Assembly: GCA_020429485.1 (NCBI GenBank)
Contig: JAGQLK010000014.1
Location: 1 to 13,543 of the forward strand
Length of the DNA stretch: 13,543 nt
Direction: 5' to 3'
DNA from: Candidatus Dojkabacteria bacterium
GTDB lineage: Bacteria > Patescibacteriota > Dojkabacteria > B142 > OLB20
In this document: positions 252-11,564 of the stretch, piece after piece
How positions within the stretch are numbered: position 1 is the first letter of the stretch
Layout: each line of letters opens with the position of its first letter
The notes under the pieces: generated by a model
Database searches by the model: none
What the model saw: the letters and a program-made list of their open reading frames with translations, nothing else
What the model was told of the DNA's origin: nothing
Program-made: the position numbers and the translations under genes

Positions 252-1502
252 ATGAAAGGAATTATCGCAGCTGCCGGCAGAGGAACTAGACTTTATCCAA
301 TTGGTATAACTACTTCCAAGACATTAGTCAAAATTTTGAATAAATCAATCATCGAATGGAGCATCGATGCACTCAAACAAAATGGAATTAATGAAGTAAT
401 AATTATCATTAGTGCCGATGAGTTTGGAGAGCAGGTTAGAAATCATCTAGAGAATGCTAATATCGATGGTGTTAACTTACAATTCGCTACTCAGAAAGAA
501 CAGTTAGGAACTGCTCATGTCTTCCAGATGGCAAAAGAACTAGTGGATGAAGGTGAAGATTTTGTAGCACTTTATGGAGATGATCTGTATGGACCAGATA
601 ATATCAGAGCTTTATTAGAACATGAATTAGCAATTATTGGAAAGAAAGTCACCGATCCTGAAAAATGGGGAATTTTACAACATGATGAACAAGGCAATCT
701 AATTAAACTTGTTGAAAAGCCCAAAGAAATGATTGGTGATCTAGCACATATTGGCTGCATGAAATTGAACGCAAGAATTTTTGATTTCTTTGACCAGTTA
801 GAAATGACAGAAAGAAGAGAATATGAGTTAACAGACTCAATTACTATGCTTGCCAACGAAAGACCAGTTAAAGTCATAGAGGCTGTAGATTACTGGTTAC
901 CAGTAGGGTATCCTTGGCATATATTAGATGCTACAGAAGTTCTAGCACCAAAAGTCGAATCCAAGATAGAAGGCGAAGTCGAACAAAATGTAGTAGTTAA
1001 AGGTAAATTAATTTTACCTGCTTCCAGCAAAATCTTAGCGAATACTTATATTGATGGTAATTTAATTGTTGGCGAAAATACTACAATAGGTCCAAACGTA
1101 ATGATCAGAGGTGACGTAGTTATAGGCAATGATTGTTGGATCAAATTCAATTCCGAAATAAAAAATACTGTAATCGGTGATTCTTGCAAAATACACTCAG
1201 GTTATATTGGCGACAGCATATTTGGAAATCATATAAACTTTCCAACTTCTATCGCAGGTAGCTATTTAGGTAGCTTTCCAGTAGCAAGAGTAGGAAGCGA
1301 CCCTGAAGAAAATACTAACGTAAAAACACTAGTTAAAAATAACTATGTAAATACATCCAGACACAAATTTGGAGCAGTAATAGGAGATAGTGTTCAAATA
1401 GGAATCAATACAGTAATTTTTCCAGGTATTAAAATCTGGCCAGGTGCTGTAACTTCACCAAATGAAGTCGTTAAGAACGATATTGTTAATAAGTGGGTTT
1501 AG
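252..1502 (+). CDS. GlmU-like sugar-1-phosphate nucleotidyltransferase with C-terminal left-handed beta-helix
   Basis: A 416-residue protein of the NTP-transferase family. Expected chemistry is transfer of a nucleotidyl group from NTP to a sugar-1-phosphate in the cytoplasm, plus possible acyl transfer by the beta-helix domain. The N-terminal domain (about 1-230) shows the nucleotide-binding signature AAGRGTRLYP at 7-16, QLGTA at 84-88, the metal-site motif YGDDLY at 108-113, and EKP at 155-157. Residues about 240-412 contain hexapeptide-type repeats such as IGPNVMIRGDVVIGNDCWI, typical of GlmU or archaeal-type bifunctional UDP-GlcNAc pyrophosphorylases. The usual PK of the loop after the signature is SK here (22-23). 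It shares a YPWHxLD motif (220-226) with the second nucleotidyltransferase in this window (228-233), so the two are probably distant paralogs. The glmS gene nearby favours glucosamine-1-P/GlcNAc-1-P as substrate, but glucose-1-P or another sugar cannot be excluded. It converges on the next gene with a 4-bp stop overlap. Confidence 0.85.
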   Translation: MKGIIAAAGRGTRLYPIGITTSKTLVKILNKSIIEWSIDALKQNGINEVIIIISADEFGEQVRNHLENANIDGVNLQFATQKEQLGTAHVFQMAKELVDEGEDFVALYGDDLYGPDNIRALLEHELAIIGKKVTDPEKWGILQHDEQGNLIKLVEKPKEMIGDLAHIGCMKLNARIFDFFDQLEMTERREYELTDSITMLANERPVKVIEAVDYWLPVGYPWHILDATEVLAPKVESKIEGEVEQNVVVKGKLILPASSKILANTYIDGNLIVGENTTIGPNVMIRGDVVIGNDCWIKFNSEIKNTVIGDSCKIHSGYIGDSIFGNHINFPTSIAGSYLGSFPVARVGSDPEENTNVKTLVKNNYVNTSRHKFGAVIGDSVQIGINTVIFPGIKIWPGAVTSPNEVVKNDIVNKWV

Positions 1503-2302
1503 GTATTAAGCTCTATTAAAGGAACAATTGTATCCAGCATATGTTGATTACCAATAACCATTTGTTCTAATTCTTTACCTATGTCTTTCTTCCAGATTTT
1601 TGCCCCAGCTTCTGTAGCCAAAATCATACCTGCTGCAGTATCTAATAATTCACTCTCATGACGATAAGGGTTAACAAATGCACCAAACATTCCTTGTGCT
1701 AACCAAGCAAGAGAAAGTGCACCGCTACCTATCATTCGTACACGATAATATTTTTGAATTAACTGAATAACTGATTGGGAAAGAAAATTTTTATGCTGCT
1801 CCCAATCATATCTGTGTGAGGTAAGATCTAATGCAAGCTGTACTTTTAGTGGGTCGGCTTCTGCAGTGATCGCCAACTTTTTACCATTAAGATAAGCACC
1901 ACCATCTAGATATGCACTATACATCTGATCAGCACTGGGATTATATATTATACCTAGTACAGGTGACCTGTCTTCCTTCCTTACTAATGCAATCGAAATA
2001 CACCACAAAGGGACATTGTTCTTAAACCATTTCGTTCCATCTATAGGATCAACAAACCACATATATTCGGCTTGCTTTGTAAGTTCTGGATTTTCTTCTC
2101 CTTGAAAGCCTGTGTTTGGATAATTCTTCTCAACAAATTCAAATATAGCTCTTTCGAGTTCTTGATCAAAGTTGGTTGAAACATCAGCTCCATGATCATA
2201 CTCTTTAGCAATTACCATCTGATTAACATTGTTATAAACATTTTGACCTAAAGGTCTAATCAGTTTAGTAATGCTCTCAGTTGCACTATTTAGATCTATC
2301 AT
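1499..2302 (-). CDS. Inositol monophosphatase-family sugar/inositol phosphatase
   Basis: A 267-residue protein, the usual length for the IMPase / FBPase / CysQ superfamily of metal-dependent, lithium-sensitive phosphatases. The metal-binding motifs are all visible: GEE at 68-70, DPIDGT inside WFVDPIDGTKWF at 82-93, and the second signature LLDTAAG at 219-225 followed by EAGAKI (usual form WDxAAGxxxxxEAGG; the W is L here). RMIGSGALSLAWLAQG (189-204) matches the conserved GSxAL region. Substrate cannot be fixed from sequence: inositol-1-P, PAP and fructose-1,6-bisphosphate are all hydrolysed by members. The operon context with YvcK and a sugar nucleotidyltransferase makes a sugar-phosphate role, possibly FBPase-like, attractive but inferred. 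The ATG overlaps the stop of the upstream gene (ATGA, 2302-2299), implying translational coupling. Confidence 0.88.
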   Translation of the reverse strand: MIDLNSATESITKLIRPLGQNVYNNVNQMVIAKEYDHGADVSTNFDQELERAIFEFVEKNYPNTGFQGEENPELTKQAEYMWFVDPIDGTKWFKNNVPLWCISIALVRKEDRSPVLGIIYNPSADQMYSAYLDGGAYLNGKKLAITAEADPLKVQLALDLTSHRYDWEQHKNFLSQSVIQLIQKYYRVRMIGSGALSLAWLAQGMFGAFVNPYRHESELLDTAAGMILATEAGAKIWKKDIGKELEQMVIGNQHMLDTIVPLIELNT

Positions 2303-3630
2303 TTTAGTTTGCTTCTAAACTCATCTCTATTTGTTTCAGAAATGTCAAAATTATTATCTTTGACTTCATAATCTTGCTTCAATCTAACAAACTTGTTTTC
2401 CTCTACATCTTTATCTAATAATACTCCTGATCCAATGAAGCAATTGCTTGCGATTTTCACTCCTGGCATCAACATTGCACCTACACCAACTCTTACATTT
2501 GAGCCAATGATATTACCTAGCTTGTTTAGCCCAGAGCTTAGACGTTCTCCTTTGATATTTACTGAGATATCTTGTTCATCAAGTCTTAAATTTGCTGTTA
2601 AAGAATGTGAGCCAAAAGATACATCGTTTTCAATAATTGAATCCCCAATGTAATTTTTATGTGTCCATACATTATCTAGCCAGTAGGAACGAGTTACTTC
2701 GGTGCTATATCCTACAATGCAATCATTGCCGAGCATAGATCCTCTGACTAAAGCGTTATTTCCAATGATGCAGTTTTTGCCGATATAAGCTGGCCCTGAA
2801 ACTACTGCATTATCAAATATCTTTGTACCTGATTCTATAATTACATTTCCTCTGATAACCGCTGTATCACTTATTTTTACATCATCAGCAATAATCTGCC
2901 CATCGATTTGGTCAAGAAAGAAGTTCATGACATCTAATACATGCCAAGGATATTTTATTGTTACCCATTTACCTCTGTAGTCAAGCATTACAAACTCGAT
3001 ATCAGATTGCATCATATTTGTCAGTGCAACCTCATAGACATCATCTGATTCACTCTGTGCTTGAGACATATATTCCCTTAACTGACCAACACTAGCAAAG
3101 TAATCAAATACAATTCTTACATATTTTGAGGGTTCATTCCCTTCACCAGGCTTTTCGTAAACTGCTTTAACAAAGTTATTATCATCTAGAACTAAATATC
3201 CTCCAGGAAAGTATTTCTCAGTCATAAATCCTGTTAGAAGAGATTGTTTTTTCTCACGTAGTCCAGAAAGCATTTCTGCGAATTGCTCAAAAAGTGTATC
3301 TTCGAAATAATCATTCATATTCAAGATAAGCAAATCATCCTCATCAGCAAAATTCTCAAGTCCTGTATTTGCTGCACCAGCCATACCATCACCAACTTGT
3401 TGCTTAACTTCAATATCGCCTTCTATTTCTTTAACAATTTCAGAAATAATTTCGGTATTAGTCTCATTACCAATAATTACTGTTTTATGTGGTTTGAGAA
3501 ACCTAATAAATTTCTCAACTTGTATTTTGGGCACTTCTTTTCCAAGGAATTTATAGAGGTTCTTTTCTTTAAGGGGGGCGAATCTACTGCTGCTTCCACC
3601 AGCTAGTATAATGAGGTTGAGGTTACTCAT
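2299..3630 (-). CDS. Second GlmU-like nucleotidyltransferase with beta-helix acyltransferase-like domain
   Basis: A 443-residue protein. The N-terminal NTP-transferase domain (about 1-245) carries LAGGSSSRFAP at 9-19 with conserved lysines shortly after (KEKNLYKFLGK, 21-31), and NMNDYFED at 104-111 in the place of the metal-binding aspartates. The segment KYPWHVLD (226-233) matches the same motif in the nucleotidyltransferase at 252-1502. From about 250 to 412 the protein is built of hexapeptide repeats (AYIGKNCIIGNNALVRGS, and VGVGAMLMPGVKI), a left-handed beta-helix as in GlmU and related acyltransferases, followed by a charged tail to 443. The signature has extra serines (GGSSSRF), more like sugar-P nucleotidyltransferases of the GlmU/RmlA-like superfamily than canonical GlmU. 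The substrate is unknown. It lies between yvcK (2-nt gap) and the phosphatase (ATGA overlap), so the three are almost certainly one transcript. Confidence 0.82.
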   Translation of the reverse strand: MSNLNLIILAGGSSSRFAPLKEKNLYKFLGKEVPKIQVEKFIRFLKPHKTVIIGNETNTEIISEIVKEIEGDIEVKQQVGDGMAGAANTGLENFADEDDLLILNMNDYFEDTLFEQFAEMLSGLREKKQSLLTGFMTEKYFPGGYLVLDDNNFVKAVYEKPGEGNEPSKYVRIVFDYFASVGQLREYMSQAQSESDDVYEVALTNMMQSDIEFVMLDYRGKWVTIKYPWHVLDVMNFFLDQIDGQIIADDVKISDTAVIRGNVIIESGTKIFDNAVVSGPAYIGKNCIIGNNALVRGSMLGNDCIVGYSTEVTRSYWLDNVWTHKNYIGDSIIENDVSFGSHSLTANLRLDEQDISVNIKGERLSSGLNKLGNIIGSNVRVGVGAMLMPGVKIASNCFIGSGVLLDKDVEENKFVRLKQDYEVKDNNFDISETNRDEFRSKLK

Positions 3631-3632
3631 TT

Positions 3633-4622
3633 TTAGTAAGTGATTAATTTATATAAAAGTCTACCAAGTTTTTGTGCATCATGTCGAACTAGACTCCTAG
3701 CAAGCGAATCACCTTTTACCTTTTTAACACGCTCTTTACTAATAATATCTTCTCTTACAACTTCAGTGTACTTATCGTCATCAATATCATCTTGGATTGG
3801 AGACTCACCTGATTTCTTATACCACTCAATAATATTGGATTCTATCTCTCCATTATTCACTACTACATAGTCAGGTCTTCTACCAGTATACTTTTCAATT
3901 TCATTAACGGTATCACTAGCAGTCATACCACGAGTTTCTCCATTTTCAGTCATCAAGTTAGTTATAAATATGATCTTTGCTTTCGAATCTTTAATTGCTT
4001 GAGCAATTCCATCGACCACCACATTAGCTAACACAGAAGTGTATAAGTCTCCAGGACCAATTGTAATGTATTCAGCCTCTAAGATTGCTTTTATAGCATC
4101 TTCGTTAGCTTTCACATTAGGCTCCAAATATAGATTTTTAATTCTTTCTTTTCTATCAACTTCCGGTACATCAATATACTGTTCACCTTTGACTACGTCA
4201 CCATTCTCATATTCTGCAATCAGTACTGCCTGTTCAAATGTCACTGGATAAAGATTGCCTTTACAATCAAATAGCTTACTTACAAAATTTATCGCTTCTT
4301 TTTCACTACCGGTAATATCAGACATAGCCATCATTATTAGGTTCCCAACTGTATGATCCGTTAGACCTTCTCCTTGATGAAATCTATATGTAAACAATTC
4401 TCTGAATTTACCATTGCCACTTCCAGCCAATGCAATAATTGACTTTCTTACATCATTGAAAGGTAATAAGCCAAATTCATCTCTAATTACTTTTGCAGTT
4501 CCACCATCATCGCTCATTTGAACGACAACACTTAAATCTAAATCATCATATATTTTTAGTCCTGATAATACTGATATAGAACCAGTTCCTCCTCCAATAT
4601 GTGTTACTTTAACTTTATTCAT
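3633..4622 (-). CDS. yvcK: YvcK/CofD-like gluconeogenesis factor (UDP-sugar-binding family)
   Basis: A 329-residue member of the YvcK / CofD-like family. In Bacillus and relatives YvcK binds UDP-GlcNAc and is needed for normal cell-wall synthesis and growth on gluconeogenic carbon. Hallmarks, numbered from the chosen start: HIGGGTGS (8-15) close to the N-terminus; MSDDGGTAK with DEFGLLPFNDVRKSIIAL following; HTVGNLIMMAM; TIGPGDLYTSVLANVVVDGI; FITNLMTENGETRGMTASD; and VVVNNGE. The open frame extends to an ATG at 4673. I prefer 4622 because family members begin only a few residues before the GGGTG loop, and the 17 extra residues (MYLSQAGVCLDFFSINN) look neither like a signal peptide nor like a domain. 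No Shine-Dalgarno decides between them. It is the first gene of the yvcK - nucleotidyltransferase - phosphatase operon and diverges from the Nudix gene. Confidence 0.9.
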   Translation of the reverse strand: MNKVKVTHIGGGTGSISVLSGLKIYDDLDLSVVVQMSDDGGTAKVIRDEFGLLPFNDVRKSIIALAGSGNGKFRELFTYRFHQGEGLTDHTVGNLIMMAMSDITGSEKEAINFVSKLFDCKGNLYPVTFEQAVLIAEYENGDVVKGEQYIDVPEVDRKERIKNLYLEPNVKANEDAIKAILEAEYITIGPGDLYTSVLANVVVDGIAQAIKDSKAKIIFITNLMTENGETRGMTASDTVNEIEKYTGRRPDYVVVNNGEIESNIIEWYKKSGESPIQDDIDDDKYTEVVREDIISKERVKKVKGDSLARSLVRHDAQKLGRLLYKLITY

Positions 4623-4722
4623 ATTATTTATGCTAAAAAAATCCAGACATACACCTGCCTGGGATAAATACATAAGAAAAACGTAAACATATAAATTAGC
4701 TTACAAATTTACAAAATTTTTA

Positions 4723-4736: not shown

Positions 4737-5162
4737 ATGGATACACAAATCAGAGGAGACAAAAATAACCCATATCATCTATCGGTCGGAATAGTTGTTA
4801 GAGAGGGGGATAGCGTATACTTAGTTAAGCATCCTATCGAAGGATATAAACTTCCAAGTGAAACTGTACATCTCTCAGAATCAATAGATGAAGCTATTAA
4901 GAGAGGTGCACAAGAAGAACTAGGTTTTATCGTAGAAACAAATAGATATCTGGGGTGTGTCATTTCCACTTTTACTAGGGAAGATGAAACACCGATAGAG
5001 AAGTGCACTTTATTCTTCGAAAGTGAAGTGATACGTAATGTTGAAAAAGATCTCGAAGCAGATGAAATAGAACAGCAAATTAAGCAATATAGTATTGCTG
5101 ATGCATTAGCTCTTCTTACAGAACATAGACCAAACGAAGCTCCTATTCTTACAAGATTATAG
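4737..5162 (+). CDS. Nudix-fold protein with a degenerate Nudix box
   Basis: A 141-residue protein, single-domain Nudix length. The core reads LPSETVHLSESIDEAIKRGA then QEELGF. Aligned with GX5EX7REUXEEXGU, the box covers residues 42-64: E48, R56, E60, E61, G63 and the hydrophobic F64 are kept, but the first G is E42 and the first Glu of REUXEE is G57. The two metal-ligand glutamates of EE are therefore present while a residue implicated in catalysis in MutT is not. The flanking strands (SVGIVVREGDSVYLVKH; LGCVISTFTREDETPI; CTLFFESEV) fit the fold. Family members hydrolyse nucleoside diphosphates linked to another moiety (NTPs, NDP-sugars, ADP-ribose). With neighbours that make or sense nucleotide sugars an NDP-sugar link is possible, but loss of activity or a ligand-sensing role is also possible. 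It overlaps the convergent guanylate-kinase-like gene by 6 bp. Confidence 0.78.
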   Translation: MDTQIRGDKNNPYHLSVGIVVREGDSVYLVKHPIEGYKLPSETVHLSESIDEAIKRGAQEELGFIVETNRYLGCVISTFTREDETPIEKCTLFFESEVIRNVEKDLEADEIEQQIKQYSIADALALLTEHRPNEAPILTRL

Positions 5163-5996
5163 TCCTAATCTATTTCCAAGCTGATCCAAATCATCATTAA
5201 CAAGAAATCTAACTTGGACACCAGCATCATATGCACTTTTTAAGGTTAAGAATTCCAACACTTGTCTATGTCCCATCGTACTTACTAAATAATCTTGATT
5301 AATACTGGGGCCATCATGAGTTTGCTCAATCTTTTCGGGCTCAGACAAGACTCTTTGTGACAACCTACTATATAAATGTAAAACCATCGGATCCGGAGGC
5401 AATATATAAATTAGTTGAAAGTCAGCGGGATAATTCAACCTATGCATATTTTGAGCAAATTGAACCAAAGTTGCAGGATTTTGTTCTACTACAACTAAAT
5501 CTGATTGTGTTAAACAACTATCTAATTCTTGTACTGTCTGACCATAGTAGCCTCTCCCTGGCTTGAAATCACTAGTTAATAAGTCTGCGGGATTAATGCG
5601 CCTGAAATCCTCATTACTCATAAAGAAATAATCTTCTCCATGAACTTCATTACCTCTCGGGTCTCTAGTTGTTGTATTAATGAATTTAGTCATGCCCATA
5701 CCATGTATCATTGCGTCCATCGTAGTTCCTTTCCCTACAGCACCAGGTCCAGCAATACCAAATACAGTTGGACCAGTAATGCTATTCATCCCGGCAGTAA
5801 TGCTCTCAAGTTCGTAGGGAGAAGGAGTTTGGGCTCTAAGGAATCCAGCCATTTCTACTATTCCATTTGACCAGGCATGAGCCATCTCCACCAGGAAATG
5901 GTGATCCAGATCAGGCCTATATACAGGACTATATGAATATCCATTTTGTTCAGGCGACCATTCATTCTGCCATACAGAACTTAATACTTCACTCAC
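5157..5996 (-). CDS. Guanylate kinase-like P-loop protein with N-terminal extension
   Basis: A 279-residue protein starting with GTG (5996-5994); no in-frame ATG lies just upstream. Residues about 77-279 resemble guanylate kinase: Walker A GPGAVGKGTT (83-92), the GMP-site signature TTTRDPRGNEVHGEDYFF (108-125) with R111, R114, E117 and Y123 in the usual positions, GYYGQ (149-153), and YILPPDP in the place of the FILPP strand. Canonical Gmk is about 200 residues, so the first 75 residues are an extra, uncharacterised segment. The GMP-site segment that normally reads LEIDVQG is VEQNPAT here (170-176), so the conserved aspartate appears to be lost. It could be the cell's divergent GMP kinase or a paralog with another nucleotide or phosphorylation role. 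It lies 33 nt downstream of glmS on the same strand and probably shares its transcript. Confidence 0.72.
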   Translation of the reverse strand: MSEVLSSVWQNEWSPEQNGYSYSPVYRPDLDHHFLVEMAHAWSNGIVEMAGFLRAQTPSPYELESITAGMNSITGPTVFGIAGPGAVGKGTTMDAMIHGMGMTKFINTTTRDPRGNEVHGEDYFFMSNEDFRRINPADLLTSDFKPGRGYYGQTVQELDSCLTQSDLVVVEQNPATLVQFAQNMHRLNYPADFQLIYILPPDPMVLHLYSRLSQRVLSEPEKIEQTHDGPSINQDYLVSTMGHRQVLEFLTLKSAYDAGVQVRFLVNDDLDQLGNRLGL

Positions 5997-6029: not shown

Positions 6030-7808
6030 TTACTTCACAGTGACGCTTTTTGCCAAATTTCTTGGCTTATCTGGATCAAATCCACGCTCTGTAGCTATGT
6101 AATACGCTAATACCTGGCATGGAATTACATTGGCAATCTTCGCTGCACTAATACCAGATACTGTTGGCAGTTCAATAAACTCATCAAATAGTTCGTTATT
6201 CTCTGTTCCTATTCCTATTACATAAGCTCCTCTTGCTTTTACCTCAGCTGTCGCTCCGATCATGTACTCTCTATCTTGATCATCATCTACAAAAGAAATA
6301 ACTGGTGTACCTTTTTCTATAAGTGCAATCACCCCATGTTTGAGTTCTCCAGCAGCAAATCCTTCTGCATGCATATAACTAGCCTCTTTAATATTTAGAG
6401 CACCTAGTAAGGCCACTTGATAGTTTGCTCCTTTCCCAAGTAAAAAAGCATGTTTCTTGGATTTAATTTTCTTTGCGATCTTTTTTATATCTCTAAGAAA
6501 ATCGTCAGATAAGTACTCTTTCAAATAATCTGTTAATCTCATAACACTATCTTTGGCAATATTATGTTGCCCAATTATGCTATTCGCTAATAAATATCCA
6601 AAAGCTACTTGTGCTGTTCCCGACTTCGTGGATAATACACATATCTCGGGACCAGTTCTACTGTAAAATGGATAATCTGAGATACGGCTTGTGGTTGATC
6701 CAATCATATTGACTGTACTTGCAATCTTTATTTTTTTATCAATTAGCTCAATTGCTTCCAAATTATCAGCTGTTTCTCCGCTCTGACTGATAACTACCAG
6801 TAAATCATTATCTTCAATTAGTTGCAGATAACTATTTATCTCATAGGGTCTTAATCCTAGTGCCTTAACTCCTGCAATGCTCCTTAAGAGATACGCAACC
6901 TGGTCAGCAGCATAAAAAGCACCTCCAGAACCAAGTACAAATATATTTTTGGCTTTTTTGGCAGCTTTAACCAAATCATGGAATTCTTCTTCGGTGTAGT
7001 TTACAGAAGAAAAAAGCGTATCTTTCTGCTCTAGAATTTCTTTAAGCATATAGTGATCAAAACCTTCTTTACTTACTTCAACTGCATCATGATCTAGTTT
7101 ATTTTTTTTGAGTTTCAATTTTTTCAACGACTCTAGTTCAAAAAGACTTAAGTCATTATCTTGATAATCGATCATTTGCATATTTTCTACGAAAACTACT
7201 TCATCTGTTTTATCTGCGAAAGAAAGAGCATCTGAAGCAAAGAATACTTCATTCTGGCCAAGGCCAATTACTAGTGGAGATCCATTTCGAACTGCAATAA
7301 TTCTATTATCTGCAGTAAGCAGAATGATCGTATTTCTTCCATTAAGTTTTAAGAATGCATTTCTTACTGCTAAAAACAGTTCTTGTTCAGTTAACAACTC
7401 CTGCTCAATTAGCTTAACAATGACTTCTGTATCGGTCTGGGTTTTAAATTTATAGCCATCTGACTCAAGTTGCTTCTTTAAGTCTTGATAATTTTCTACA
7501 ATTCCATTTTGAGCCAGTACAAAGCTATTATCATTTGAAAAATGTGGATGCGCATTAAGCTCGGTAACACCTCCATGAGTCGCCCAGCGTGTATGCCCAA
7601 TACCTATATGAGACTCTGGCAATTTCTTAATATCTTGTAGATTTCCTATTGCTCCAATTTTTTTAGAAACTAGAATATCTTTTGAATCATCTTTACCGAT
7701 TACCGCCACACCCCACGAATCATATCCTCTATACTCTAAACGTTTTAGCCCTGTTAATATTGTTTCTGCAGCGTCAGCATCACCACAATAGCCAAAAATA
7801 CCACACAT
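6030..7808 (-). CDS. glmS: Glutamine--fructose-6-phosphate aminotransferase (isomerizing)
   Basis: Makes glucosamine-6-phosphate from fructose-6-phosphate and glutamine, the first committed step to UDP-GlcNAc and peptidoglycan. The chosen start gives 592 residues beginning MCGIFGY, which places the nucleophilic Cys at position 2, where class II glutamine amidotransferases need it after Met removal. An ATG 99 bases upstream (7907) would bury this Cys and is rejected. Visible motifs: LEYRGYDSWGVAV, GHTRWATHGG and NAHPH in the glutaminase domain (about 1-230); then two SIS isomerase domains with SQSGETADN, STKSGTAQ, GKGANYQVALLGALNIKEASY and HAEGFAAGELKHG; and the C-terminal signature PRNLAKSVTVK. 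STKSGTAQ replaces the common STKAFTAQ. No Shine-Dalgarno precedes the ATG. The leader carries a glmS ribozyme, implying product feedback. Confidence 0.97.
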   Translation of the reverse strand: MCGIFGYCGDADAAETILTGLKRLEYRGYDSWGVAVIGKDDSKDILVSKKIGAIGNLQDIKKLPESHIGIGHTRWATHGGVTELNAHPHFSNDNSFVLAQNGIVENYQDLKKQLESDGYKFKTQTDTEVIVKLIEQELLTEQELFLAVRNAFLKLNGRNTIILLTADNRIIAVRNGSPLVIGLGQNEVFFASDALSFADKTDEVVFVENMQMIDYQDNDLSLFELESLKKLKLKKNKLDHDAVEVSKEGFDHYMLKEILEQKDTLFSSVNYTEEEFHDLVKAAKKAKNIFVLGSGGAFYAADQVAYLLRSIAGVKALGLRPYEINSYLQLIEDNDLLVVISQSGETADNLEAIELIDKKIKIASTVNMIGSTTSRISDYPFYSRTGPEICVLSTKSGTAQVAFGYLLANSIIGQHNIAKDSVMRLTDYLKEYLSDDFLRDIKKIAKKIKSKKHAFLLGKGANYQVALLGALNIKEASYMHAEGFAAGELKHGVIALIEKGTPVISFVDDDQDREYMIGATAEVKARGAYVIGIGTENNELFDEFIELPTVSGISAAKIANVIPCQVLAYYIATERGFDPDKPRNLAKSVTVK

Positions 7809-7908
7809 AATTGATACTTTAACAATTAATAAATATTCAGAAAACCAAGGACTAACCTTAGTTAATTTATTCGGAGAGATGTCTATTTTGAATTGAATTT
7901 TATGCAAA

Positions 7909-8053
7909 TATTACTACTTGTTTTCATTCAACCCCTGAGTAACTAATAGATAACTTGATAAGTTATAGAGAAGTTCTGGACGCACCCGCTGATAATTCGA
8001 TAACGTCCCCCTCGTTTTCCTCTTATTACTTTTAAAAAGAGGAACCATACGCT
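7909..8053 (-). promoter_or_regulatory. glmS ribozyme (glucosamine-6-phosphate-activated self-cleaving riboswitch)
   Basis: On the minus strand, directly upstream of glmS, I read the glmS ribozyme core. The predicted cleavage site is A8053|G8052, followed by GCGTATGG (family: GCGCCUGG). P1 is an 8-bp stem TTCCTCTT (8044-8037) / AAGAGGAA (8024-8017) with a 12-nt loop. Then comes ACGAGG (family: GACGAGG). P2 is GGAC (8008-8005) / GTCC (7981-7978), enclosing TTATCGAA and the block GCGGGTG, both matching the conserved core. The first bases GCGT could pair with GTGC (7985-7982), like the pseudoknot pairing of the family. Differences from what I recall of the consensus are GCGTA for GCGCC and TCAGCGG for UCGGCGG. 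The 3' part is less certain: a 7-bp hairpin ATAACTT/AAGTTAT (7966-7950) and a mismatched stem (7948-7938 with 7918-7909) may correspond to P3/P4. In characterised bacteria, GlcN6P binding triggers cleavage and lowers glmS expression. Confidence 0.85.
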
Positions 8054-8064
8054 TAAGAAATTTG

Positions 8065-8092
8065 TTTATACCTCCTATTTATTAAATTTAAA
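8065..8092 (-). promoter_or_regulatory. Putative promoter of the glmS ribozyme leader
   Basis: On the minus strand, TTTAAA (8092-8087) and TATAAA (8070-8065) are 16 bp apart. Initiation near 8058 would leave only about five nucleotides 5' of the predicted ribozyme cleavage site, consistent with the short 5' leader usual for glmS ribozymes. The AGGAGG at 8076-8071 falls inside the promoter spacer, is not transcribed in this model, and does not precede a start codon at usable spacing. The remaining bases between here and the stop at 8145 hold no gene and no strong terminator. Confidence 0.4.
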
Positions 8093-8144: not shown

Positions 8145-9851
8145 TTAAGAAGGGGAGTATTGGGCTTGTAATTTATTGTTTACAGCTGCCATAAGTAATT
8201 GATCATCTCTATTTACACGCTGATCTTCAGACTGTGAATTCGAAGATGCTCTGCTATAAAGAACTCTATCGCACATGTTATTCCGAAGTGTGTCATATAA
8301 CCACATGGAGTCATAATAACGAGAGAGCAAATTATACAACGGGAAATGTTTCCAACCCCTACTTGCACTAATTACAAATCCATTATCAGCAGATACATCA
8401 TCCAGCACAGTAAGCAGACGTCTATTGGCATAAAGAATTCCTGTCTTTGCAGTAAATATCAGTGAGCCAATCATTGTGTCATAATCAGCTTCTTGTTCTT
8501 CAACAGCTCTCTGTACCCAATTTAGAATAGCTAGCACAGAGTCCTTGTATATTGAAGCAAAAGCTGGATTATATTCATTGGACGTAACAATACTAAGATC
8601 GATCTCCAACCCATCTGGACCTTCTACAATTGCATCTGTAAGAATAGTTAACATCTCTGCACTCAACACTTCTTCATATGTCTCATCACCCCATAAAGGT
8701 CTTCGATCTTCCACACCTAAATGATTTCTTTCATGGTGATCTATCATTACTAAGCCATTGAATGCCTCTTCTTCTGTTTCATACATTTCTGTAACAGAAA
8801 TGTCTACTCCGATGTGATCATTTAAATGATACCCCGCTCGATCTCGTCTTCCTTCAAGTGGTAAAAAAAATCGATTGGTTTTATAGTACCTTTCACGATC
8901 TGCAAATTGTGGATATCGTTGATTGATAAATTGGTTCATCAAGTTAACTCTATCTGATGCAGCATTTTCCATATCTGCTAGCAAAGAAAACACTTCATCT
9001 TGGAAATTATCATCGTATTCTACCTCCATTGCCAATGCCATCTGGCATAAACGTACATAATCCAAACATGCAAGATAGTATCTCTCAGCTTCATTAGGTC
9101 CGCCTATTACATTACCTGATCTACTTGACCTACGGCTTAGATTCTCAGCTCTCCTTGTATCAATCAAAGCTAATCCGTGATTATTAATATCATTTACAAC
9201 ATCTAGGATATAGGCGTTTAAAGTACGAACACCACCTTCTTGGGAATAGAGTAGATCTTCTCGCATCCATGGAAAATCTTCTAATATTTGCCTTACTGCA
9301 TCTTCTGGTGTTTGAATTCTTTCGATCTGATTAATACCACTCGATTCAAAATCCAACAATTCATCATCGACCATAGAAACTACCAGCTCATTTGTATCTA
9401 CTACGTGAGTGATATAGTTACCATGTGTTCCTGGAAATTCAACAGTTGCACCAAAAGGTACTACAAAATCTACATTATCGTGAGACTGACCACTTTTCCA
9501 ATGGATTCTACCTATAACGTGTACTCCATCATCATCGTCTGCTAAATTGAACTCAGCATTTTCACCTTGTCTAGTTACAAAAGCGAGTGTATCTGTTTGA
9601 GTACTTGCTACTTCTATAAAATTGATACCTAATACAAATGCTTCAAATTGATCATCTGTTTCTAGAAGCTCAACATTAGCACCATCACGGATATGTTTTA
9701 CATCGGCTCTTCCAACTGAAAGTGATCCATTATAAACACTCAAAACTACATCACCTCTCACAACATCTGTACCGTTTCTGTCACGACCAAATGCCAAGGT
9801 TCTATCTATAGTATTTATCGAACCTCCTATATTTTGTTCTCGCTCGCTCAT
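8145..9851 (-). CDS. Unrecognised HExxH protein (predicted metallo-enzyme), paralog of the preceding gene
   Basis: A 568-residue acidic protein with no signal peptide or membrane segment, so it should be cytoplasmic unless exported by an unusual route. Residues 1 to about 170 look beta-rich (short alternating hydrophobic strands, many D/G turns); the rest is mainly helical. The key feature is HERNH at 373-377, a match to the zinc-binding HExxH motif in a hydrophobic context (GLVMIDHHERNH), followed by TYEEVLSAEML (391-401) whose glutamates (E393, E394, E399) are candidate third metal ligands as in gluzincins. A second conserved histidine cluster, HLNDHIGVDI, lies at 342-351. The C-terminal half contains FVISASRGW (492-500). 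The same landmarks occur in order in the neighbouring paralog. I cannot name a family; peptidase activity is an inference from the motif alone. It is the last gene of the three-gene operon, 3 nt after its paralog. Confidence 0.7.
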   Translation of the reverse strand: MSEREQNIGGSINTIDRTLAFGRDRNGTDVVRGDVVLSVYNGSLSVGRADVKHIRDGANVELLETDDQFEAFVLGINFIEVASTQTDTLAFVTRQGENAEFNLADDDDGVHVIGRIHWKSGQSHDNVDFVVPFGATVEFPGTHGNYITHVVDTNELVVSMVDDELLDFESSGINQIERIQTPEDAVRQILEDFPWMREDLLYSQEGGVRTLNAYILDVVNDINNHGLALIDTRRAENLSRRSSRSGNVIGGPNEAERYYLACLDYVRLCQMALAMEVEYDDNFQDEVFSLLADMENAASDRVNLMNQFINQRYPQFADRERYYKTNRFFLPLEGRRDRAGYHLNDHIGVDISVTEMYETEEEAFNGLVMIDHHERNHLGVEDRRPLWGDETYEEVLSAEMLTILTDAIVEGPDGLEIDLSIVTSNEYNPAFASIYKDSVLAILNWVQRAVEEQEADYDTMIGSLIFTAKTGILYANRRLLTVLDDVSADNGFVISASRGWKHFPLYNLLSRYYDSMWLYDTLRNNMCDRVLYSRASSNSQSEDQRVNRDDQLLMAAVNNKLQAQYSPS

Positions 9852-9854
9852 GAT

Positions 9855-11564
9855 TTAAGGTTGATTAAACTGACTTTGGATTCTTGTATTAATTGTATCC
9901 AATAATAATTGATGTTCGTCAACTTCTACTGGTGTTGGTGCAGCTGACTCGGGTCTTGGGCCCGGACTTTTCTTCTTTCTACGGCCATCTCTAAAAACTC
10001 TATCACTAATCTCGTTCTCAAACATATTTCTAAGCTGCTCTCGATTATAATATCTGGCCAATGTATCGAAAATAGGCATATCATACCAGCCCCTTGAGCT
10101 ACTTATTACAAAACCATGATCTGCTACTGCGCCTGGAACACGTTGTAGTATTTTAGGTCTTGCTGCAAATATCCCGGTTCTAGCTGTAAACAATAATGAT
10201 CTAACTAAATGTTCATATGCTTGTGGAGTATCAGCTACTTTTTCAACCATCCTCAAAATTCTTTGAACTGATGAAAAATACGCTGAACGAAATCCTGGTT
10301 CATAATCATCCGAAGTAACAATACTTAGATCTAATTCAAGACCACTATCACCTTCCACTATCGCATCTGTAAGCACTGTCAACATTTCCGCCGTTAGCAC
10401 TTCTTCGTATGTATCATCATCACTGAGATCTAATCTTGTCTCAGATCCAATATGGTGCCTTTCGTGTGTATCTACACCCACAAGCGCTGCAAATGCGCCA
10501 TCTTCTGTTCTACCTTGCGGAATGGTGATATCCATACCAAGATGTGCATTGCTATGAACCCCGGATTTTGTCTCTGCAACCTCAGGAGGGGTAAAAAATC
10601 TATTACTTTTGAAATATCTTTCTTCTGTTGGTAGATGAGGGTACTTTTCTGATATAAATCTATTCATTAGATCAATATTACCTTGAGCTGCATTTTCTAA
10701 ATCTGCTAAAAGTGTGAATATTTCACTCTGAAAATGTTCATCTTGCGGGATTCCCATATTAATTCCTAATTGACACAATCTCACAAAATCAAGACAAGCA
10801 AGATAATACCTTTCTCCTTCCGTTTCTCTTCTTAATCGTCTGTCTGATCTATGTTGAATAGATGCAAGTCTTATCTCGTCTACATAACCAACGCCATGTT
10901 GATTAATATCACCAACTGCACCTTCAATATATATATTGAAGAATACGTCACCCCCCTCACGTGTATAAAGTAACTCTTCATCTAACCAAGGGAAATCTGC
11001 AAGTATTTGGTTCACTGCCTCATCGATAGTGTTAATTGGTTCCATTGTGAAGATTCCACCTGACTCATAATCTACATTATCTTCAACCAATCTAGTCACA
11101 ACTAATCTATCTGTATCTGCTATATGTGAAACGTAAATACCAGTAAATGCAACTACTGTACCACCCTTTGGCACCTTAAATCTTACCCAGTCTTTTGAGT
11201 TACGATTAGGCCAAATTGCATCACCCTCGAGTTCAATTTCATAATCATCTTCATCGGTAACAGCTAGAGTTACTTCTTCATTTGCAGGTGTATCAAAGTG
11301 TAAATTACCATCCTCAGAATCCTGGACTAGTGCAAAATCCAGTTGATCTACAAAAGGAGGGATCTGATTAGTATCTTGTAAAACCTCTAAATTTCCAGCA
11401 TTAGTAATAGCATGTAAATATGCATCTCCTGCACTTGCAAGTCCATCTTTTACGTATAGAACCTTTGATTTATGCGTAATTATCTGACCATGTCTATCAT
11501 AACCGTACGCAACGGTTTTATCTATAAGATTTTCTGGGCCAATATTTGGCTCTATTTCGCTCAT
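9855..11564 (-). CDS. Unrecognised HExxH protein (predicted metallo-enzyme), tandem paralog
   Basis: A 569-residue protein, paralogous to the next gene over its whole length. Both start MSExExNIG and end with a Q-rich helix. In the block after the HExxH motif, residues 385-418 here and 391-424 there match at 29 of 34 positions. It has HERHH at 367-371 (an HExxH match), TYEEVLTAEML at 385-395 with E387, E388 and E393 as possible third ligands, HSNAHLGMDI at 337-346 and FVISSSRGW at 485-493. Spacing from the last His of HExxH to the AEM glutamate is 22 residues in both copies. The N-terminal 165 residues are the most divergent part. A charged, proline-rich linker (about 527-548, RRKKKSPGPRPES) near the C-terminus is absent from the paralog. 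There is no signal peptide. The start codon overlaps the stop of the upstream Asp-box gene (ATGA, 11564-11561), so the two are translationally coupled. Confidence 0.7.
   Translation of the reverse strand: MSEIEPNIGPENLIDKTVAYGYDRHGQIITHKSKVLYVKDGLASAGDAYLHAITNAGNLEVLQDTNQIPPFVDQLDFALVQDSEDGNLHFDTPANEEVTLAVTDEDDYEIELEGDAIWPNRNSKDWVRFKVPKGGTVVAFTGIYVSHIADTDRLVVTRLVEDNVDYESGGIFTMEPINTIDEAVNQILADFPWLDEELLYTREGGDVFFNIYIEGAVGDINQHGVGYVDEIRLASIQHRSDRRLRRETEGERYYLACLDFVRLCQLGINMGIPQDEHFQSEIFTLLADLENAAQGNIDLMNRFISEKYPHLPTEERYFKSNRFFTPPEVAETKSGVHSNAHLGMDITIPQGRTEDGAFAALVGVDTHERHHIGSETRLDLSDDDTYEEVLTAEMLTVLTDAIVEGDSGLELDLSIVTSDDYEPGFRSAYFSSVQRILRMVEKVADTPQAYEHLVRSLLFTARTGIFAARPKILQRVPGAVADHGFVISSSRGWYDMPIFDTLARYYNREQLRNMFENEISDRVFRDGRRKKKSPGPRPESAAPTPVEVDEHQLLLDTINTRIQSQFNQP

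Follow-up and report, generated by a model that had tools for sequence, protein, structure and literature searches.

A clade-specific core variant of the glmS ribozyme family before glmS in a probable Dojkabacterium

The glmS leader and its surroundings

The window, by which we mean the whole stretch of 13,543 nucleotides analyzed here, carries a glmS gene on its minus strand (Table 1), and the 5′ leader of this gene aligns end to end with RF00234, the covariance model of the glmS ribozyme. The match (E 1.1e-12) scores 62.5 bits, the cut-off being 37, and ends 71 nt before the glmS ATG at position 7808. RF00234 is the sole Rfam family above its cut-off in the window, and it matches the genome once. 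The initial annotation had proposed a glmS ribozyme from a series of motifs, all of which are found on the minus strand: A8053 and G8052 flanking the cut, an 8-bp P1, ACGAGG, TTATCGAA and TCAGCGGGTG. The Rfam search bears out the family call, and the location directly before a true glmS is confirmed by a TIGR01135 score above cut-off; the ribozyme does occupy 7909–8053, where it had been placed, but it is longer. Chance resemblance, which the initial annotation had also discounted, is excluded by the RF00234 score, the place before glmS, and the recurrence of the element before glmS in relatives. Judged from its score, place, and conservation, the element is a true member of the glmS ribozyme family with a clade-specific core variant.

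Beyond glmS lie a guanylate-kinase-like gene, a NUDIX gene, a GlmR/YvcK-type gene, and two GlmU-like genes. The GlmR/YvcK-type gene is on the same strand as glmS, two genes off, with one intervening gene (NUDIX) on the opposite strand. In Bacillus subtilis, GlmR stimulates GlmS unless UDP-GlcNAc is high (PMC7525490); a GlmR-type gene this close to glmS would permit a second layer of control, for which it is a candidate. Two adjacent minus-strand ORFs of 568 and 569 aa (8145–11564) are similar in start and length, and searches of Pfam and NCBIfam to E 0.001 give no match for either. As judged from one protein, GlmS, the host is most likely a Patescibacterium of the Dojkabacteria/WS6 lineage, so that the earlier guess of Patescibacteria holds: among the best 120 of 7999 GlmS matches, the closest taxon-named proteins are those of “candidate division WS6” (69% identity) and Candidatus Dojkabacteria, the only further taxon name being “bacterium.”

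Table 1. Features of the window, with the evidence for each
Feature	Position	Strand	Basis
glmS ribozyme, full RF00234 match	7880–8064	−	62.5 bits, model 1–167
AGGAGG, upstream of the cleavage site	8071–8076	−	no ATG, GTG or TTG in next 16 nt
Predicted cleavage site, between A(-1) and G(1)	8052–8053	−	RF00234 alignment, sequence letters
P2.2 5′ strand: C2 G3 U4 A5 U6 G7	8046–8051	−	letters, numbering after PMC7125110
P1 hairpin, 8 pairs (8044–8037 with 8024–8017)	8017–8044	−	RF00234 alignment, predicted fold, letters
ACGAGG; C28 G29 A30 (8014–8012) pair with U43 C44 G45 (8000–7998), forming P2.1	8010–8015	−	invariant in 19 aligned f9 relatives
P2 (8008–8004 with 7982–7978), enclosing the core	7978–8008	−	RF00234 alignment, predicted fold, letters
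P2.2 3′ strand: C52 A53 G54 C55 G56	7987–7991	−	letters
P3 with extra inner hairpin (7966–7960 with 7956–7950)	7938–7977	−	hairpin, predicted fold; outer P3 pairs, by eye
P4 (7934–7926 with 7898–7890) and P4.1 hairpin (7920–7905, GUAA loop)	7890–7934	−	predicted fold, letters
AATAGA, likely 3′ strand of the P3.1 pseudoknot, with CTATT in P3 (7949–7945)	7882–7887	−	by eye
glmS, 592 aa	6030–7808	−	TIGR01135, 559.2 bits (cut-off 418.05)
Guanylate-kinase-like gene	5157–5996	−	
NUDIX gene	4737–5162	+	
glmR/yvcK-type UDP-GlcNAc-binding protein	3633–4673	−	TIGR01826, 267.2 bits (cut-off 196)
GlmU-like sugar-phosphate nucleotidyltransferase	2299–3630	−	below TIGR03992 cut-off
GlmU-like sugar-phosphate nucleotidyltransferase	252–1502	+	above TIGR03992 cut-off

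The letters of the cleavage site, A(-1) and G(1), as well as C2 G3, C55 G56, and those of P2.1, are all in the window. P2 comprises five pairs in the RF00234 model, rather than the four first reported, and a sixth (U-G) is possible. Nor is the 3′ part “shortened or rearranged,” as had been thought: P3 is enlarged by an extra hairpin, and both P4 (nine pairs, including two G-U pairs) and P4.1 (six pairs, GUAA loop) are present in the predicted fold. That fold is more stable than those of most shuffled sequences (z -2.41; 3 of 200 shuffles as low). One point against our explanation is that the best predicted structure, computed with no pseudoknots allowed, pairs some of the core letters otherwise.

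Related leaders show conservation of the core and covariation in a pseudoknot, points on which the initial annotation had asked for a check. In 19 relatives of family f9, the core letters are invariant or nearly so except at positions 4 and 5. The P3.1 pseudoknot covaries in these sequences: the longest helix averages 4.32 pairs with the sequence's own partner and 3.32 with swapped partners (0 of 2000 shuffles as high), and the preference is the same for 15 non-redundant sequences. It is in relatives that the element is shorter: the f9 matches are 130–140 nt long, and no P4.1 is visible by eye in their alignment. In f9, AGGGA, which precedes the cut, and UCCC, which follows the ribozyme, are complementary, but the head-to-tail helix that they could form (P0, or 5′-3′ clamp) is not supported, since a sequence's own partners pair no better than swapped ones (5.26 pairs own, 5.34 swapped; p 0.67).

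Distribution and descent

RF00234 is found above its cut-off in 24 of 96 relatives, the window's own genome included, and glmS adjoins the match in all 24 loci, its frame being broken in L011 and cut by the contig end in L014. Further Patescibacteria loci have glmS beside the match in 34 of 35 cases, which brings the figure for all fetched Patescibacteria loci to 58 of 59; the exception, L112 (24.5 bits, below cut-off, no glmS beside the match), was dropped. In a sample of the phylum, which partly overlaps the 96 relatives, 23 of 379 genomes have a match, 21 of them above cut-off. For the class of genome G361, the corresponding numbers are 36 of 280 and 32; seven of the 37 matches in that class have no fetched locus and lie outside the neighborhood counts.

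Among 85 genomes of the host's class, 38 have glmS (35 above cut-off, three in pieces), and the ribozyme precedes the gene in 27 of these 38, including 19 of 19 genomes in family f9. Twenty-three of the 27 were identified in the first pass with RF00234. First-pass absence was partly a filter effect, since G007 (42.1 bits) and G003 (20.6 bits) were recovered later; G008 was missed by Rfam even at E up to 10 although its core is visible by eye, and the core of G001 was found by pattern and by eye. The G003 leader (L281) has an intact core and no recognizable P4, and its score explains why model searches at cut-off miss it. In G001 (L300), the glmS behind the ribozyme consists of two pieces, one of which contains a TAG. 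No ribozyme was seen before glmS in the remaining 11 genomes, eight of which (G004, G011, G016, G021, G022, G064, G073, and G083) were searched for core motifs in 900 nt as well as with Rfam (E up to 10), and three (G006, G023, and G025) for core motifs only, in 639–705 nt; as Rfam also missed G008, these cases mean that none was seen rather than that none is there.

Outside Patescibacteria, the ribozyme occurs in 7 of 29 genomes of one Chloroflexota class. Thirteen loci with named records were scanned for RNA families, and only that of a member of this class (L025) has the ribozyme; the scan detected no glmS ribozyme in the named Patescibacteria L026 and L028. In viral contigs, a loose core pattern matches at least 120 stretches, where chance matches are expected because the pattern has wide gaps.

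In a quickly built tree with 78 GlmS rows, from which L011, L014, and L300 of the 27 are absent, the window's GlmS falls inside a Dojkabacteria clade of 29 rows (SH-aLRT 99), 24 with the ribozyme and five without. Contamination or recent transfer is thus unlikely; the latter had been doubted in the initial annotation on other grounds. The ribozyme-less rows inside the clade fit losses, and within Dojkabacteria the tree fits an old trait. Next to the clade stand 10 other Patescibacteria rows, all with the ribozyme, the joint fork having a support of 92. Outside Dojkabacteria the pattern is not one of simple descent, because three class members without the ribozyme (L268, L269, and L275) have their GlmS at other places in the tree, the other Patescibacteria rows do not form a single group (six changes), and the Chloroflexota rows are interspersed among them. 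Since most non-Dojkabacteria rows were chosen for having the ribozyme, gains are not countable from this tree.

Register of the P2.2 helix

In the canonical P2.2 of Andreasson et al. 2020 (PMC7125110), nucleotide 6 is bulged and the pairs are 2-56, 3-55, 4-54, 5-53, and 7-52. The initial annotation rightly remarked on GCGUA and UCAGCGG as unusual, but missed the link between them: these letters sit on the facing strands of P2.2 at the cleavage site. In the window, U4 A5 U6 stand opposite A53 and G54; A5 faces A53, and the canonical set of 4-54 and 5-53 cannot form. This failure is not disqualifying, because the 5-53 pair is poorly conserved across the family (PMC7125110). The letters of the window would permit a P2.2 helix with a single bulge, A5, and the pairs U4-G54 and U6-A53. 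Mutants altered at 4, 5, or 53 were rescued in vitro by an alteration at 6, and registers with 4 or 5 bulged have been inferred from this (PMC7125110).

Three types of P2.2 are found among the 26 class members tabulated: UAU/AG (11), GCU/AG (10), and ACU/AG (5). G001, taken from its printed sequence, is UAU/AG. None of these 27 can form 4-54 and 5-53 together, and all 27 can form 6-53 plus either 4-54 or 5-54, i.e., a shifted register only. The picture differs in 35 other Patescibacteria, of which 31 fit the canonical register, three (L022, L127, and L137) only a shifted one, and one (L130) none. The canonical fits are often achieved with altered letters, as in UGU/UG (23 cases), UGU/UA, CGU/UG, UAA/UA, and CAA/UG; in L121, A7-U52 replaces G7-C52. 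Among the six readable Chloroflexota sequences, five have the canonical CC/GG and L265 fits no register; L266, whose 5′ end is unreadable, was excluded from the P2.2 counts.

Over 64 rows, 62 fit some register, compared with a mean of 50.6 when the 3′ letters are shuffled (0 of 10,000), and 36 fit the canonical register, compared with 21.2. Because the rows are related, figures per type are fairer: 13 of 15 distinct types fit any register (mean 9.1; p 0.012, a moderate value) and nine fit the canonical one (mean 4.7; p 0.0044). G1 C2 G3 occurs in all 64 rows; C55 G56 was not counted as a test, having been built into the search pattern. Mapped on the GlmS tree, the register requires four changes. 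Within the class, where U6, A53, and G54 are invariant, the case for a shift rests on broken canonical pairs rather than on covariation.

The two registers differ by only two pairs, and over types the lower p value belongs to the canonical register alone. Both facts suit a reading in which the RNA is a working glmS ribozyme that keeps the canonical register despite mismatches, and in which the shifted bulge is an artifact of short complementarity. We consider this reading doubtful, given that 15 of the 26 class members (GCU/AG and ACU/AG) are mismatched at both 4-54 and 5-53, and that outside the class the canonical fit is common and is sometimes kept through changes on both strands, e.g., UAA/UA. 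The bulge of the clade is, in our opinion, probably at position 4 or 5 (A5 here) and not at 6, with U6-A53 and U4-G54 paired. L105 (CUU/AG) fits all three registers; if the re-registered reading is true, sequences of this kind would be a step between registers.

A decayed relic, in which the fold is kept and the altered P2.2 is inactive, could be suspected from the broken canonical pairs of GCGUA and UCAGCGG, the more so as a single mutation at 5 or 53 brings an average loss of ~1000-fold in vitro (PMC7125110) and as G replaces A at -1 in L019 and L127 (A in 65 of 67 leaders). A relic would drift, whereas the core outside positions 4 and 5 is conserved in the 19 relatives, all three core variants of the class regain pairing in a shifted register, and P3.1 covaries; we regard decay as very improbable. 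That the same fold serves as a non-cutting switch, or one with another ligand, is scarcely credible in view of the cleavage-site letters, the intact P2.1 (C28 G29 A30 with U43 C44 G45), and the presence of glmS beside every fetched Patescibacteria locus above cut-off.

Proposed control and comparison with known ribozymes

The explanation that we hold very probable, taken as a whole, is that a Dojkabacterium has a cis-acting glmS ribozyme in the leader of its glmS gene, with cleavage as a predicted part. By extension from the known family, glucosamine-6-phosphate, the product of GlmS, would on accumulating bind a preformed pocket as a cofactor (both features of the glmS ribozyme; PMC2258182). 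The RNA would then cut itself between A8053 and G8052, leaving a 5′-OH end on the glmS message; the message would be degraded, and the GlmS product would limit its own synthesis. In B. subtilis, cutting is set off by GlcN6P, and the 5′-OH glmS message is then broken down by RNase J1 (PMC3997798).

RNase J is found above cut-off in 75 of the 96 relatives and, among the 27 genomes of the class that bear the ribozyme, in 23, so most of the clade could use the B. subtilis decay route. It was not found in G000, the window's own genome (77% complete; best score 17.2 bits), nor in G007 (96%), G014 (99%), and G077 (80%); its absence from the matches in the window's own genome is a point against our explanation. 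In G014, the leader (L019) has an extra G at the cut, which puts G at -1; the related leader L012 has A there, and its genome (G061) has RNase J.

No sigma-70-type promoter match precedes the ribozyme in the window, which also counts against the explanation. Of 61 Patescibacteria leaders, 10 have AGGAGG in the 45 nt upstream of the cut (0.76 in shuffles), namely two of 26 Dojkabacteria, the window included, and eight of 35 others. The distance from the start of AGGAGG to the cleavage site is 17 to 37 nt, and the next 16 nt contain ATG or GTG in none of the 10 leaders and TTG in five. A strong SD sequence with no start codon can stabilize a message (PMC3997798); as an idea only, the SD-like AGGAGG may be a 5′ message stabilizer that the cut removes. 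The parts can be joined into a single reading: in Dojkabacteria the P2.2 bulge would have moved naturally from 6 to 4 or 5 throughout the clade, with U6-A53 paired, the ribozyme still active, and L105-like sequences as intermediates, and in some Patescibacteria, the host included, the cut would also strip a protective AGGAGG. We see the case for this joint reading as evenly balanced.

With these results, metabolite-driven control by a ribozyme would reach into Patescibacteria, a very large group whose gene regulation is little known, with the glmS ribozyme retained across a large part of one class. The main survey of glmS ribozymes is that of McCown et al. 2011. Among the open-access papers listed, none reports a glmS ribozyme from Patescibacteria in its title or the beginning of its abstract; such sequences may already be in Rfam. 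What is new is the letters of P2.2, and likely the shifted bulge that they suggest. PMC11665869 names riboswitches as tools.

With the RF00234 ribozymes of B. subtilis and Thermoanaerobacter tengcongensis, the window shares the cleavage site, P1, P2, P2.1, P3, P3.1, P4, and P4.1 with a GNRA-type loop, as well as the place before glmS. It differs from them in having UAU/AG instead of the consensus CC/GG in P2.2, a probable shifted bulge, and an enlarged P3. The Chloroflexota ribozymes are of the same family, and that of L025 likewise lies upstream of glmS; the canonical CC/GG is kept in most of those that can be read. The closest parallel to the proposed register is provided by the rescue mutants of T. 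tengcongensis (PMC7125110): in both, 6 would pair with 53 and the bulge would stand at 4 or 5. Those mutants were engineered, whereas the Dojkabacteria letters are natural and clade-wide, and thus offer natural sequences for testing whether the bulge can move with activity kept, a possibility previously inferred from mutants.
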